DNA from: an uncultured Flavonifractor sp.
GTDB lineage: Bacteria > Bacillota > Clostridia > Oscillospirales > Oscillospiraceae
Assembly (NCBI RefSeq): GCF_944385615.1
Contig: NZ_CALWXV010000022.1
Span: 1 to 39,692, forward strand
DNA: 39,692 nt
Direction of reading: 5' to 3'
Positions 2,527 to 38,844 of the stretch are shown one piece after another. Both the position numbers and the translations under genes were made by a program. Each line of letters begins with the position of its first letter. Within the stretch, counting starts at the first letter, position 1. The notes beneath the pieces were generated by a model, which was given only the letters and a program-made list of their open reading frames with translations, made no database searches and was not told the origin of the DNA.

Positions 2527-3897
2527 TTACTTGCCCACGCAGAACCGCTCAAAGATGCGGGCGGTGATATCCTCCCGGATGTTGGCCCCCGTCAGCTCAC
2601 CCAGGGCGGACAGGGCCTCCTCCACATCGGTGAGCAGGGCATCAGGGGTGACCCCCGCCGCCAGATTTTCCACCGCTCGCTTCACCCCCGCCAGAGCCCG
2701 CTTGGCGGCGTCGGCCTGCCGGGCGTTGGTAAGCAGCTCTCCCGCCGCGTCCCCGCTCCCGGCGGGGAACAGCTGGGCAATGACCTCCCCCAGCCGGTCC
2801 AGCCCCATCCCGGTTTTGGCGCTCACCGCCACCACCGGCGGCATGGGGTCCAGACCCAGCACCGGCATGGGCTTGGAGGGCAGATCGGCCTTGGTCCGCA
2901 TCAGGATCACCGGGCCGTGGGCCATGGCGCGCTCCAGCAGAGCCACATCCTCCTCCCCCATGGGGACCGAGCCGTCCCACAGCACCAGGGCCAGAGCGGC
3001 CTCCTCCAGGGCGGCCTTGCTGCGCTCCACCCCCATCCGCTCCACCGCGTCGTCGGTATCCCGGATACCGGCGGTGTCGATAAGCCGGAGGGCCACACCC
3101 CCCAGCACACAGCGGGCTTCCACCGTGTCCCGGGTGGTGCCGGGGATATCGGTGACGATGGCCCGGTCATAGCCCACCAGGGCATTGAGCAGAGAGGACT
3201 TGCCCGCGTTGGGCCGCCCCACCAGCACGCAGGGCACCCCGCCGGCGATGTACTTTCCCCGCTGATAGGTGGCAAGCAGCGTCCGCAATTCCTCCACCGC
3301 CCGGTCCAGGCTCTCCTGAATGGTGTCCGCCCGGAAGGGGTCAATGTCCTCGTCGGGGTAGTCCAGCACCGCGTGGAAGTGGGCCAGCAGATCGGTGAGT
3401 CCGTCATAAATGGCCCGCACCCGGCGGCTCAGAGCCCCGGAGAGCTGTCCGGCCGCCTGCCGGACGGCGGCGGGGGTTTCGGCGTCGATGAGGTCGGCCA
3501 CCGCCTCGGCCTGGGTCAGGTCCAGCCGCCCGTTGAGGAAGGCCCGGCGGGTAAACTCCCCCGGCCCGGCCTGCCGGACCCCCTGGGCAAAAAGGGCCTC
3601 CAGTCCCAGGGCCAGCACCGCCGGGGAGCCGTGACAGTGCAGCTCCGCCGTGTCCTCCCCGGTGTAGCTGTGGGGCCCGTGGGAGAAGGTGGCCAGGGCC
3701 TGGTCGATGACCTCCCCCGACGGCCCCAGCAGCGTCCCCAGCACCAGATTCCGGTCCTCATACGCCGTCAAAGGCTTGTTCCCCAGGGGGCGGAACACGG
3801 CGGAGAGGGCGGAAATGGCCTCCGGCCCGCTGAGGCGCAGGATGCCGATGGCGCTGGGCGCGGCGGGGGTGGCGATGGCTACAATGGTATCGGACAT
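2527..3897 (-). CDS. mnmE: tRNA uridine-5-carboxymethylaminomethyl synthesis GTPase MnmE
   Basis: With MnmG, MnmE modifies the wobble uridine U34 of certain tRNAs. The 456 residues start with the family's N-terminal tetrahydrofolate-binding domain (MSDTIVAIATP...ILRLSGPEAI). The central G domain carries GRPNAGKSS (G1), IPGTTRD (G2), DTAG (G3) and TKAD (G4). The C-terminus is FCVGK, the family's catalytic Cys motif, with Val for the usual Ile. The open frame runs 41 codons further upstream, but the family start and the AGGAAGG site support ATG at 3897. mnmG, jag and yidC, frequent neighbours, are absent: htpG lies downstream and the thyA operon upstream. The leader holds a DnaA-box-like array. 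Confidence 0.96.
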   Translation of the reverse strand: MSDTIVAIATPAAPSAIGILRLSGPEAISALSAVFRPLGNKPLTAYEDRNLVLGTLLGPSGEVIDQALATFSHGPHSYTGEDTAELHCHGSPAVLALGLEALFAQGVRQAGPGEFTRRAFLNGRLDLTQAEAVADLIDAETPAAVRQAAGQLSGALSRRVRAIYDGLTDLLAHFHAVLDYPDEDIDPFRADTIQESLDRAVEELRTLLATYQRGKYIAGGVPCVLVGRPNAGKSSLLNALVGYDRAIVTDIPGTTRDTVEARCVLGGVALRLIDTAGIRDTDDAVERMGVERSKAALEEAALALVLWDGSVPMGEEDVALLERAMAHGPVILMRTKADLPSKPMPVLGLDPMPPVVAVSAKTGMGLDRLGEVIAQLFPAGSGDAAGELLTNARQADAAKRALAGVKRAVENLAAGVTPDALLTDVEEALSALGELTGANIREDITARIFERFCVGK

Positions 3898-4000
3898 GAC
3901 ATTTCCTTCCTGTTTCCATCCAAAACGGAAACTTTGGCGATTCTGCCGTGGATTTTCCTCTTGACTGCCGCTGGCTGGGCCAAAAGATGCATAATGGCTG

Positions 4001-4052
4001 TTTTCCACCGGTGTGGACAAGTGTGGAAAACTATGTGGATAATGTGGAAAAC
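4001..4052. other. Cluster of DnaA-box-like 9-mers
   Basis: On the minus strand TTTTCCACA (4044-4052), TTATCCACA (4034-4042, a perfect consensus DnaA box), TTTTCCACA (4022-4030) and TTGTCCACA (4012-4020) follow each other in the same orientation with starts 10, 12 and 10 bases apart. A fifth, inverted TTTTCCACC is at 4001-4009 on the plus strand. An AT-rich stretch flanks the cluster. This resembles a DnaA-loading array of a replication origin, or a DnaA titration/regulatory site. Gene orientation does not switch here, so oriC identity is unproven. Confidence 0.6.
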
Positions 4053-4097
4053 CCTGTGCGTGGAAGGGCTTCCCGTTTTCCTGCCGTTTTTTAACAT

Positions 4098-4126
4098 TGG
4101 ATATTTTTTTGTATATGCTTTGTCAA
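4098..4126 (-). promoter_or_regulatory. Candidate mnmE promoter
   Basis: Minus strand: -35 TTGACA (4121-4126), 17-bp spacer, -10 TATCCA (4098-4103). The -35 is perfect but the -10 is imperfect. Transcription from here would give a leader of about 190 bases that contains the DnaA-box-like array. Confidence 0.45.
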
Positions 4127-4281
4127 ATGATAAACGGCAGAACAAACATTTTGTTAGCTTGTCAAAAAATTTGGCTGATTTTTGGGCAAGTCGGCTCTTG
4201 CTCCCAATGGGCGGGCATGATACCATTACCCTGTGGTAAGTTACCATGCGCAGGGGGTGAAACCCTTGGGGCACAGTGGTT

Positions 4282-36076: not shown

Positions 36077-36153
36077 GGCGGCATAGCTCAGTTGGCTAGA
36101 GCATACGGTTCATACCCGTAGTGTCCCCGGTTCAAATCCAGGTGCCGCTACCA
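36077..36153 (+). tRNA. tRNA-Met (CAT), elongator type
   Basis: Full cloverleaf with encoded CCA. The anticodon loop is TTCATAC on stem TACGG/CCGTA, so it lacks the three G-C pairs of initiator tRNA. The acceptor starts with G1 opposite U72, as in other elongator Met tRNAs. The T stem CCCGG/CCAGG has a C-A mismatch in the middle. Confidence 0.93.
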
Positions 36154-36156
36154 GAC

Positions 36157-36187
36157 CCAAAAGACGGCACGCGCCGTCTTTTGGGGT
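36157..36187. repeat. Inverted repeat between tRNA-Met and tRNA-Glu
   Basis: CCCAAAAGACGGC and GCCGTCTTTTGGG can pair around a CACG-type loop. Only four Ts lie within the arm, so it may be a weak terminator or an RNase processing hairpin of the tRNA precursor. Confidence 0.6.
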
Positions 36188-36222
36188 CACCTTTCCGAGC
36201 GTTCGGCCCGCTTGGGCAACAT

Positions 36223-36297
36223 GGCCCGTTGGTCAAGTGGTTAAGACACCGCCCTTTCACGGCGGTAACACGAGTTCGAGTCTCGTACGGGTCACCA
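36223..36297 (+). tRNA. tRNA-Glu (TTC)
   Basis: Cloverleaf with encoded CCA. Anticodon loop CTTTCAC (TTC) on stem CCGCC/GGCGG; acceptor GGCCCGT/ACGGGTC; T loop TTCGAGT. Confidence 0.95.
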
Positions 36298-36301
36298 ATA
36301 T

Positions 36302-36377
36302 GGAGGCGTAGCTCAGCCGGTAGAGCACTTGCTTCACACGCAAGGGGTCACAGATTCGAGTTCTGTCGTCTCCACCA
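36302..36377 (+). tRNA. tRNA-Val (CAC)
   Basis: Cloverleaf with encoded CCA. Anticodon loop TTCACAC (CAC) on stem TTGC/GCAA; acceptor GGAGGCG/CGTCTCC; T loop TTCGAGT. Prophage genes begin after its terminator, so its 3' end is a possible attachment site. Confidence 0.95.
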
Positions 36378-36613: not shown

Positions 36614-37093
36614 TTACTTCTTGTCGCTCTGGTCCTTAGCAACACTCTCCCCTACCTGATCCACCCTGTTCTCCAGTGCGGCGATCATCTTACTGAGCCA
36701 CACCGGAATAGGGGCTCCCAGCGCCCCGGCGTTCTCAATGATGCTCCCGGCCTCGGTGAGGATGTACCAGATCACCACCAGTGGGCACAGCAACACCGTG
36801 TAGGCAAAGGGCAGTTCTACCCCCGGCAGGTTGGCCAGCAGGTGCCCGATGACCACATCCAGAATAGCCGCCACGATGACGGCTACCACGCTGCCCAGCT
36901 TGTGCCAGATGCCGTCCCGGGCGGACTTGCTGGACCACTCCCCCGCCCGCAGAGCGGCGGCGGAGCCGGTGGCGTAGTCGATGAGCATACAGCCGATCCA
37001 CGCCACCACCACCCAGCCGAACCACCCCCACAGGGCGGTCAGGGCGGCGCACAGAGCGGCCAGAGCCGCCTTGAATGCGTTGACATGCTCCAT
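36614..37093 (-). CDS. Phage holin
   Basis: 159 residues with three or four hydrophobic segments (AALCAALTALWGWFGWVVVAWIGCMLIDY, LGSVVAVIVAAILDVVIGHLLANL, AYTVLLCPLVVIWYILTEAGSIIENA). The MLIDYATGSAAALRAGEWSSKSARDGIWHKLG block is characteristic of the toxin-secretion/phage-lysis holin family (BlyA/TcdE-like). It forms membrane lesions that time lysis. AGGGAGG precedes ATG 37093. It directly follows the endolysin gene. Confidence 0.93.
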   Translation of the reverse strand: MEHVNAFKAALAALCAALTALWGWFGWVVVAWIGCMLIDYATGSAAALRAGEWSSKSARDGIWHKLGSVVAVIVAAILDVVIGHLLANLPGVELPFAYTVLLCPLVVIWYILTEAGSIIENAGALGAPIPVWLSKMIAALENRVDQVGESVAKDQSDKK

Positions 37094-37094
37094 A

Positions 37095-37838
37095 TCAGCT
37101 ACCTCCCTTCTGGGACAGCAGCCCCAGCCGGTCCAGGATCACCGCGGCCTGCTCCCGGGTCAGCGGCCCCTGTGGGTTGGTGCCGTCAAAGATACCCAGC
37201 GCCACTGCCTTCTCCCAGGCCTCCTTGGCCCAGGAGGACGGCTGACCCGGTTCGCCGCTCTCCGGCTGCTCCACGGCGTCCATGCCCAGATAGGCCAGGA
37301 TACCGTTGGCGATGCCGGCGGCCAGCGTGTCCCGGTAAGTAGCATCAGACAGCAGAGCCACGTCCTCTTTATTGGTATGGAAGCCGCACTCCAGCAGCAC
37401 GGCGGGGGCTGTGGTGGCGGTAAGTACAGTGAACAACTTATGATAGGGTTTTCCGCTGCCGAACAGCACCACCCCCTGAGCCTTCACTGCGTTGATGATA
37501 TCCACCGCCGCCTGGTTGCGCTCGGCACTCTCTGGGCCGCTGGAGGTATAGGCCACAAAGCCCCGGGCGCTGCTCCAGCCCCCGCCGCCGGTGGCGTTGG
37601 AGTGGAGGGAGACAAACAGGTCGGCCCCGGCCCGGTTGCTGACGTTGGCCCGGGCGGTGAGGCCGGGGACCTCATTCTGGGTCCGGGTGCAGACAACCGT
37701 AACGCCCTGCTGCTCCAGCAGCGGCTTCAGGCGGGTGTACAGGTCCCAGGTGAACTCATGCTCCTTATATGCCCCATCCGGGGAGCCGTTGACGTTGCCC
37801 GGCCCGTGGCCGGGGTCCAGGCACACGATCTTGCTCAT
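37095..37838 (-). CDS. Probable second product: amidase plus SLH part from an internal start
   Basis: Within the endolysin frame ATG 37838 (MSKIVCLDPGHG) is preceded by AGGAGG (37847-37852) with an 8-base gap, as good as any gene start in the window, and falls at the domain boundary. It would give a 247-residue amidase with wall-binding repeat. Internally started short forms are known for some phage endolysins and combine with the full-length protein. It could also be the relic of two fused genes. Confidence 0.6.
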   Translation of the reverse strand: MSKIVCLDPGHGPGNVNGSPDGAYKEHEFTWDLYTRLKPLLEQQGVTVVCTRTQNEVPGLTARANVSNRAGADLFVSLHSNATGGGGWSSARGFVAYTSSGPESAERNQAAVDIINAVKAQGVVLFGSGKPYHKLFTVLTATTAPAVLLECGFHTNKEDVALLSDATYRDTLAAGIANGILAYLGMDAVEQPESGEPGQPSSWAKEAWEKAVALGIFDGTNPQGPLTREQAAVILDRLGLLSQKGGS

Positions 37839-38456
37839 AGTGGTTTCCTCCTTTTCATCCGGTTCTTTGGCCGCTCCCTTGGTCCACACGCAGATCCAGT
37901 TGTGGACCTTGCGGGCGGCGGTAATCTGCTGGCCATCAAAATCACACTGGGAGGACCCGCCGCCGTCCAGCATCATGGCGGAGTCCCAGCCCAGGCCCAG
38001 CAGTTTCTTCTGCAAGTCCTCCGGCGTGGAAGCGTCCCCCGAGCCGTCCGAGGAGCAGTACAGGCCCAGACAGCCATTGACCAGCCCCATAGCGGACCGG
38101 CCCCGCTTCCCGCCCTGAGCGGCGGCATAAGGGATGTCCAGGGCCTTGCCGTCCCGGATCATGGGGGACACGGCGATAAAGTTGGCGCTGCTCTGCCAGT
38201 CGGTGGTCAGATGAAGCCCGCCAGGGGCGTCCCAGGCATAGCCCGGGACGTTGCCCCACGGAGTATTGGACAGCAGCTTGCCGGAAACTTTCAGCCCCCG
38301 GCAGGGGGAGCCGTCCGGGTTCCACATGCCGCCGTTGAGGATGTAGTCGGCCCCCGTCTCCCCCTTTACCTGGGCCAGCGACTTGCGGCAGTTGGTTACC
38401 ACGATCTCCAGCCGGTCAATGGACTGGAGAGGGATCAGGGCGATGCGCTTACTCAT
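37095..38456 (-). CDS. Two-enzyme endolysin: phosphodiester glycosidase-like domain plus N-acetylmuramoyl-L-alanine amidase
   Basis: 453 residues from ATG 38456 (GTG 38462 is an alternative). Residues about 1-195 resemble the phosphodiester glycosidase (NAGPA/DUF2233) family: ADYILNGGMWNPDGSPCRGLKVSGK, SAMGLVNG, then SAMMLDGGGSSQ. Residues about 208-385 are an Amidase_3 domain with zinc ligands in DPGHGPGN, KEHEFTWDL and LHSNATG and catalytic Glu in LLECGFHTN. The last 45 residues (WAKEAWEKAVALGIFDGTN to TREQAAVIL) look like one SLH cell-wall-binding repeat. An internal AGGAGG and ATG at 37838 could yield the amidase part alone. Confidence 0.85.
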   Translation of the reverse strand: MSKRIALIPLQSIDRLEIVVTNCRKSLAQVKGETGADYILNGGMWNPDGSPCRGLKVSGKLLSNTPWGNVPGYAWDAPGGLHLTTDWQSSANFIAVSPMIRDGKALDIPYAAAQGGKRGRSAMGLVNGCLGLYCSSDGSGDASTPEDLQKKLLGLGWDSAMMLDGGGSSQCDFDGQQITAARKVHNWICVWTKGAAKEPDEKEETTMSKIVCLDPGHGPGNVNGSPDGAYKEHEFTWDLYTRLKPLLEQQGVTVVCTRTQNEVPGLTARANVSNRAGADLFVSLHSNATGGGGWSSARGFVAYTSSGPESAERNQAAVDIINAVKAQGVVLFGSGKPYHKLFTVLTATTAPAVLLECGFHTNKEDVALLSDATYRDTLAAGIANGILAYLGMDAVEQPESGEPGQPSSWAKEAWEKAVALGIFDGTNPQGPLTREQAAVILDRLGLLSQKGGS

Positions 38457-38844
38457 GGTCACCAGCGGCCTCTTCCTGCTTCTTCTCCCACTCCTCCCGG
38501 GCGTGGGCGGATACGGGGCCGGGGTCGGCGGTGGCCTCCATCAGGTCGATCATACCCTGGTAGTCCCCCTCGTTCCACAGGGGCTTGAGCTGCTTCATCA
38601 GGTACTGACGCTTGCGGATGTAGGCGTTGTAGTCGTCATTGACAGCAGCCAGGTCAGGGTTGGCCTCATGCAGCGCGGCCCAGTCGGGGCGGAAGGCACG
38701 GGGCAGCACCATAGCGCCCTTGTGCTCGTCCCGGCCCAGCCGGATGTTATTCTGGAGCATGGAGTCGCCCACGCCCAGGTCCACATCGTTGGCGTTGGCA
38801 ATGGCGTAGCAGGCGGGGGTCAGCTGGTTGTAGTTGATAGACAT
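38449..38844 (-). CDS. Phage protein of unknown function
   Basis: 131 residues, soluble, acidic C-terminus, no recognised domain. The sequence SINYNQLTPACYAIANANDVDLG with a later YNAYIRKRQYLMKQLKPLWNEGDYQGMIDLMEA reads as a small helical phage protein. ATG 38844 lies 8 bases after AGGAG; the ATG at 38850 is too close. Its stop overlaps the endolysin start. It could be an adaptor or lysis-accessory protein, by position only. Confidence 0.75.
   Translation of the reverse strand: MSINYNQLTPACYAIANANDVDLGVGDSMLQNNIRLGRDEHKGAMVLPRAFRPDWAALHEANPDLAAVNDDYNAYIRKRQYLMKQLKPLWNEGDYQGMIDLMEATADPGPVSAHAREEWEKKQEEAAGDHE

Follow-up and report, generated by a model that had tools for sequence, protein, structure and literature searches.

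Introduction

What is the role of a tight array of DnaA boxes placed directly in front of a tRNA-modification gene? The question is raised by a 39,692-nt stretch of DNA (contig C22, here called the window) from an uncultured Flavonifractor species of the family Oscillospiraceae, where such an array lies upstream of mnmE (trmE). The 2.69-Mb genome is assembled in 87 contigs, and comparison of its MnmE protein identifies Flavonifractor and Pseudoflavonifractor species and MAGs as the closest named relatives. An earlier note, made from the sequence alone, had offered four readings of the locus: the chromosome origin, an origin remnant that moved with mnmE, a DnaA titration site, or control of mnmE by DnaA. 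To our knowledge, Firmicutes DnaA as a transcription factor is known mainly from Bacillus subtilis.

The DnaA-box array in front of mnmE

The upstream neighbors of mnmE are a NUDIX gene followed by genes for DHFR and thymidylate synthase, while htpG lies downstream, all on the minus strand. The genes on either side of the array are thus co-directional, as noted earlier from their open reading frames (ORFs), and the earlier remark that jag and yidC do not adjoin mnmE holds as well, since contig C25 carries, next to dnaA and in order, ORFs recognized by eye as rnpA, yidC and jag. At 78 mnmE loci with flanks of up to about 5 kb, a search for an mnmG motif found none. In the window, the next gene after mnmE is htpG, unlike in the B. 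subtilis trmE operon, which continues to rsmG and noc. Elsewhere in the window (36077–36377 and 36614–38462), three tRNA genes (Met, Glu, and Val) adjoin ORFs which by eye resemble phage holin and amidase genes, an arrangement as at the edge of a prophage.

Box calling with at most one mismatch from TTATCCACA reveals four minus-strand boxes (Table 1) whose starts at 4012, 4022, 4034, and 4043 are spaced by 10, 12, and 9 bp. The earlier description of four 9-mers in one orientation, one of them perfect, is therefore accurate except for the last spacing, which had been given as 10. The fifth, inverted copy mentioned there was also found, as a weak match with two mismatches, and inverted GTGGA(A/T)AA-like partners are seen in several relatives. 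Equivalents of the fourth box are present in four loci (L010, L012, L014, and L019) and absent from most other relatives. The adjacent AT-rich DNA is equally real: the region upstream of mnmE reaches 78% AT in 50 bp, compared with 55–65% GC in 2-kb slices of the window. The chance of four such 9-mers within 61 bp is about 2e-9 (Poisson, local base composition), and the whole window contains nine of them, the four of the array and five others, vs. 4.2 expected. The existence of the array and its excess over chance are thereby confirmed, with evolutionary conservation providing stronger evidence than the Poisson estimate.

Table 1. Features of the mnmE control region, in window coordinates.
Feature	Position	Strand	Description
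mnmE (trmE)	2527..3897	-	456 aa; Pfam MnmE_helical 6e-52, TrmE_N 9e-38, MMR_HSR1; gene downstream of array
GTCAAG	3960..3965	-	Conserved; mostly 86–87 bp from array start, downstream of array
Weak inverted box	4001..4009	+	TTTTCCACC; 2 mismatches vs. TTATCCACA
Fourth box	4012..4020	-	TTGTCCACA; spacing 10
DnaA box 3	4022..4030	-	TTTTCCACA; 3-bp gap from box 2, start spacing 12
DnaA box 2	4034..4042	-	TTATCCACA, perfect consensus; abuts box 1, start spacing 9
DnaA box 1	4043..4051	-	TTTTCCACA; first of conserved triple
AT-rich stretch	4085..4190		Upstream of array
Promoter-like element	4098..4126	-	TTGACA (4126–4121), 17 bp, TATCCA (4103–4098); TATACA (4115–4110) inside

The array is not the replication origin

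Directly repeated DnaA boxes beside AT-rich DNA are a feature shared with the basal unwinding system of Firmicutes origins, and it is this combination that would speak for the array as a functional chromosome origin or a second origin. In this genome, dnaA is located on C25, a contig separate from that of mnmE, where one flank of dnaA carries ORFs identified by eye as rpmH, rnpA, yidC, and jag and the opposite flank carries dnaN. Within the 347-bp gap between dnaA and dnaN there are ten matches to the box, each with no more than one mismatch (two overlap and four are exact), together with the DnaA-trio TTACTATTA. All four exact TTNTNCACA boxes of this gap are TTTTCCACA, the variant of array boxes 1 and 3. 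In contrast, a search of the mnmE region for a trio, defined as three or more CTA/TTA following work on the Clostridioides difficile origin (PMC7561715, partial text), found none.

Because the genome is fragmented, GC skew was measured in relatives. In G010, a member of the same genus, the cumulative skew reaches its minimum at about 110 kb of contig C13, next to dnaA at 115.7 kb, whereas contig C16 shows no minimum at mnmE (95.8 kb), its sole minimum, near 140 kb, being shallow. For G145, a relative assembled as a single contig, the minimum falls within the first 20 kb, the place of dnaA, and from there to about 165 kb the curve hardly changes; mnmE is found on the opposite side of dnaA at a distance of about 174 kb, and the skew from mnmE to dnaA is mostly negative. 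Skew and the position of dnaA, which the earlier note had named as the check on its origin reading, hence both point to dnaA, by the minimum in two relatives and by the richer box cluster in the genome itself. The array differs from a Firmicutes origin in lacking the trio, in showing no skew switch in the relatives and in its distance from dnaA, and the co-directional genes flanking it also argue against such a role. The origin reading was therefore rejected as close to untenable.

A fixed triple is kept with mnmE in the family

The core of the array is a triple of the form TTNTCCACA-TTNTCCACA-NNN-TTNTCCACA in the orientation of mnmE (the 9/12 triple). This fixed-geometry set of directly repeated DnaA boxes accompanies mnmE in most of the family members that were examined, and it is not an origin. 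Scored as present at 20 or more of 24, it was found before mnmE at 65 of 81 loci, an uneven sample comprising the best 80 tblastn matches and the window, compared with 2 of 1649 similarly long windows taken from these loci; these controls are mostly coding, which flatters the contrast, so that re-spaced patterns searched genome-wide are the better control. In a second, partly overlapping whole-genome sample, the triple was found in 15 of 24 scorable family mnmE loci (four incomplete loci omitted). Conversely, it is missing from 16 of the 81 loci, of which one (L032) is incomplete, and from nine of the 24.

The geometry within the array is narrowly defined. Same-strand neighboring boxes before mnmE are 12 bp apart in 68 pairs and 9 bp apart in 65, the next spacing accounting for eight. 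The triple is oriented like mnmE at all 65 positive loci, and scores for the reverse orientation stay at or below 17 of 24 throughout the 81 loci. Between array and start codon the distance ranges between 88 and 264 bp, the array of Flavonifractor plautii (L021) being at -213 from mnmE, and the constraint therefore resides within the array. Genome-wide searches with re-spaced patterns corroborate these findings: when two mismatches are allowed, one or more 9/12 triples occur in 93 of 150 family genomes, while the backward-read pattern is not present among the matches listed for these genomes. A swapped 12/9 spacing was found in seven of the 150, six of the seven matches overlapping 9/12 matches by coordinate, and a 10/11 spacing in one. 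The order and spacing of the boxes are specific.

Furthermore, the array stays with mnmE through changing upstream neighborhoods. The nudix/dhfr/thyA arrangement of the window is common to just seven of 80 relatives, another recurrent group of ORFs lies upstream at 40 of 78 mnmE loci, and smaller groups also exist. An operon-like ORF on the same strand close upstream of mnmE was found at six of 62 loci with the array vs. nine of 15 without (Fisher p = 9e-5, with loci treated as independent despite their relatedness). The presence of the array thus accompanies an mnmE with an upstream region of its own; the counter-cases are the six loci which carry the triple behind an operon-like ORF.

One locus, L028, retains yidC and jag about 3–4 kb upstream of mnmE with the array in between, as would be expected if the array were an oriC remnant displaced with mnmE from the rpmH-rnpA-yidC-jag cluster. 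The old neighborhood itself can be inspected in other Clostridia, where a jag match lies 72 to 1193 bp upstream of mnmE in 25 of 28 loci (those with the highest scores outside the family, drawn from the 153 class genomes that gave a match). While this linkage favors a remnant, the loci which keep jag in front of mnmE lack the array: it was found in none of the 28, no triple scoring above 14 of 24, and in 27 of them no exact TTDTNCACA box occurs within 400 bp before mnmE. For other Oscillospirales, the jag-mnmE gaps examined are those of two loci (L221 and L238). The constrained spacing is likewise unlike that of a decaying remnant, and a remnant, as suggested in the earlier note, appears highly improbable. 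With no box array at mnmE in the 28 other Clostridia, the array looks gained rather than carried along, and the simplest reading is that it was gained as mnmE left the jag cluster and acquired its own control region.

Other elements of the control region

The region around the array carries further conserved motifs, which were counted after redundancy reduction (49–50 of 65 rows kept; all other counts are unreduced). GTCAAG occurs in 44 of 49 non-redundant relatives vs. a shuffled expectation of 0.67, and its near-fixed distance downstream of the array implies that DnaA boxes are not the sole elements of the control region. CATAA precedes GTCAAG by 4–8 bp in 36 of 49 relatives and is absent from the window. 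The combination TATN..CATAA, also absent from the window, is present in 24 of 49 relatives vs. 0.23 expected; it may be sigma-E-like, a reading that serves as a lead.

A promoter-like element (Table 1) lies upstream of the boxes. With a relaxed first hexamer it recurs in 16 of 49 non-redundant relatives, and its TATNC-N6-TATNCA core in 22 of 49, the mononucleotide-shuffle expectation being 0.00 in both cases. A sigma-70 consensus scan returned two plus-strand matches and none on the minus strand of mnmE, missing the TTGACA-N17-TATCCA element, which is therefore a putative promoter. Transcripts from it would begin about 40 bp before box 1, and the array would then lie at about +40 to +80. A search for RNA elements against Rfam at E up to 0.1 yielded a single match below threshold, to a CRISPR repeat (22.4 bits, gathering 37, E 0.086), which was taken as chance.

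These flanking elements (GTCAAG, CATAA, TATNCA), together with the free third base of the boxes, could indicate that the array is bound by a regulator other than DnaA with a TTNTCCACA-like half-site. Such a regulator is very unlikely. The 9-mer matches the box of the genome's own dnaA-dnaN gap, the triple is also found between dnaA and dnaN in two family loci (L184 and L187), and the corresponding places in B. subtilis bind DnaA (PMC4447404, partial text). Near the dnaA-dnaN triple of L184 and L187, a search for a DnaA-trio found none.

The triple at other genes

Apart from mnmE, the triple recurs at other genes. For 40 hand-picked family sites among the matches listed, the nearest gene is tsaD in 11, mnmE in seven, spoVB, an M16 peptidase gene and dnaA-dnaN in two each, and the rpmH-yidC-jag side in one, a placement which rests on matches to yidC and jag; no gene was assigned to the remaining 15. 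In four loci (L188, L191, L123, and L137), the triple lies about 160–260 bp upstream of a gene for a spoVB-like flippase, which is followed by mazG in L188 and L191.

The present genome (G000) contains two further triples. One (C9:40917; L008:6918-6947) reads TTTTGCACA-TTATCCACA-TGG-TTTTCCACA and is located between mazG and the 3′ end of an M16 peptidase gene; a matching triple in G001 and G010 likewise lies beside an M16 gene, 19 kb from dnaA in G010. The other (C28:14665; L153:3001-3030) is found near the gene for a collagen-like (GPTGPTGP) repeat protein, by eye resembling an exosporium protein.

Across the class, at least one triple was found in 49 of 156 genomes, this genome counted, and the backward control gave one match in the 156. 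The sites examined comprise 50 of the 53 among the matches listed outside this genome. In 27 of them the triple lies 3′ of tsaD, within 900 bp, and on the opposite strand to tsaD in 26 of the 27; 22 sites have no assigned gene and one is inside mnmE. The tsaD sites come from several Clostridia families (L316-L322, L325, L328, L329, L331, L334, L336-L340, L351-L357, L360, L361, and L365). In a distant Clostridia genome, a perfect triple lies antisense within the mnmE coding region (L342; G286:C10:38802). No exact box was detected within 600 bp 3′ of tsaD in G000, G001, and G010; G002, of the same genus as G000, carries a triple there with a score of 22 of 24. The 3′ side of tsaD is a place where simple promoter repression is unlikely, and the module may therefore have a further role.

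This recurrence away from promoters is what would be expected of a DnaA titration or DnaA-state locus, comparable to the B. subtilis clusters or E. coli datA, which holds DnaA away from oriC or alters its nucleotide state, with control of mnmE being secondary. Removal of six DnaA-box clusters in B. subtilis (Okumura, 2012, as covered in the review PMC5295017, partial text) leads to early initiation, the effect being strong only with all six gone. A prominent example of these clusters outside the origin is gcp/ydiF, located between 3′ ends and resembling the Clostridia triples 3′ of tsaD (= gcp); the array of the window differs in its position at a 5′ end and in the lack of exact tsaD boxes in the three genomes named above. 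By sequence, candidate titration boxes outside oriC are present at mnmE. Against titration as the main function stand the uniform orientation of the triple with mnmE and the fact that the triple follows mnmE instead of keeping a fixed chromosomal place, lying about 174 kb from dnaA in G145 and about 273 kb in G096. Titration is therefore regarded as unlikely, though less so than the readings weighed above.

Predicted control of mnmE by DnaA

The array is most probably a DnaA-binding regulatory array in the mnmE promoter or leader through which DnaA would control mnmE. Among the four readings of the earlier note, this one is best supported: the array tracks mnmE across neighborhoods, it is more often missing where mnmE lies close behind another gene, and a counterpart in front of B. 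subtilis trmE has been found bound in experiments (PMC4447404, partial text). The preference rests on this last point, as DnaA binds upstream of trmE (mnmE) in B. subtilis and appears to repress it. In that organism, the region contains four sites which DnaA binds with a Kd of 0.33 uM with ATP, and the trmE-noc operon is apparently repressed directly (PMC4447404, partial text); trmEF-rsmG-noc is also listed among the directly DnaA-regulated genes (PMC8203912, partial text).

The two loci share a box array directly upstream of mnmE/trmE as well as the number of four boxes (region 5, downstream of jag; Smith and Grossman, 2015). They differ in context, since B. subtilis mnmE follows jag near oriC and heads a trmE-...-noc operon, whereas here jag is found with dnaA on another contig and htpG follows mnmE, and in the fixed 9/12 triple of the window's family. 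As the array is absent at mnmE in the 28 other Clostridia, no simple inheritance of the B. subtilis site can be assumed; that site may have arisen in parallel, or the trait may have been lost in other lineages. In E. coli, DnaA favors two boxes separated by 2–3 bp, and binding drops strongly when one base is added (PMC11317965, partial text). Array boxes 2 and 3 resemble this double box, being direct repeats with a 3-bp gap, but the conserved unit of the window includes a third, abutting box.

In the proposed mechanism, DnaA, probably as ATP-DnaA, would bind the three boxes cooperatively, head to tail and roughly on one helix face, since the 21 bp between box 1 and box 3 correspond to two turns and would place both on the same face. 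In this species, a fourth protomer may be added at the fourth box. Bound DnaA would hinder transcription of mnmE, either as a roadblock to polymerase that has started at the promoter-like element, about 40 bp further upstream, or through occlusion of a promoter closer to the gene. The output of mnmE would then fall at high levels of free DnaA and rise once DnaA has been consumed or inactivated, so that the tRNA wobble-modification GTPase would be tied to replication initiation. The same binding could also have a small titrating effect on DnaA.

Wider implications

In the open-licence literature, to which the search was confined (subscription papers being outside its scope), no report was found of such an array at mnmE in organisms other than B. 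subtilis, nor of one at tsaD in Clostridia. The recurrence of the triple at tsaD in Clostridia is the more surprising of these two leads. As a tentative proposal, which is possible rather than probable, the 9/12 triple may be a dedicated, ancient DnaA assembly unit of the Firmicutes, distinct from the unwinding boxes of oriC, whose commonest home in Clostridia is the 3′ side of tsaD and which was recruited to mnmE in the Oscillospiraceae, linking initiation to tRNA modification. Its natural variants offer a ready test set for the assembly of DnaA on double-stranded DNA away from the origin.

If true, the t6A modification (TsaD) and the xm5U modification (MnmE) would be coupled via DnaA, and translation quality would be coupled to chromosome initiation. 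B. subtilis ywlC, which we take to be tsaC, would be a third tRNA-modification member of this link. A triple placed at mnmE within a single gut family, and at the tsaD 3′ end across many Clostridia, would mean that both are parts of an old DnaA regulon which follows its genes, and would suggest that the replication state is read by the cell when setting its capacity for tRNA modification.
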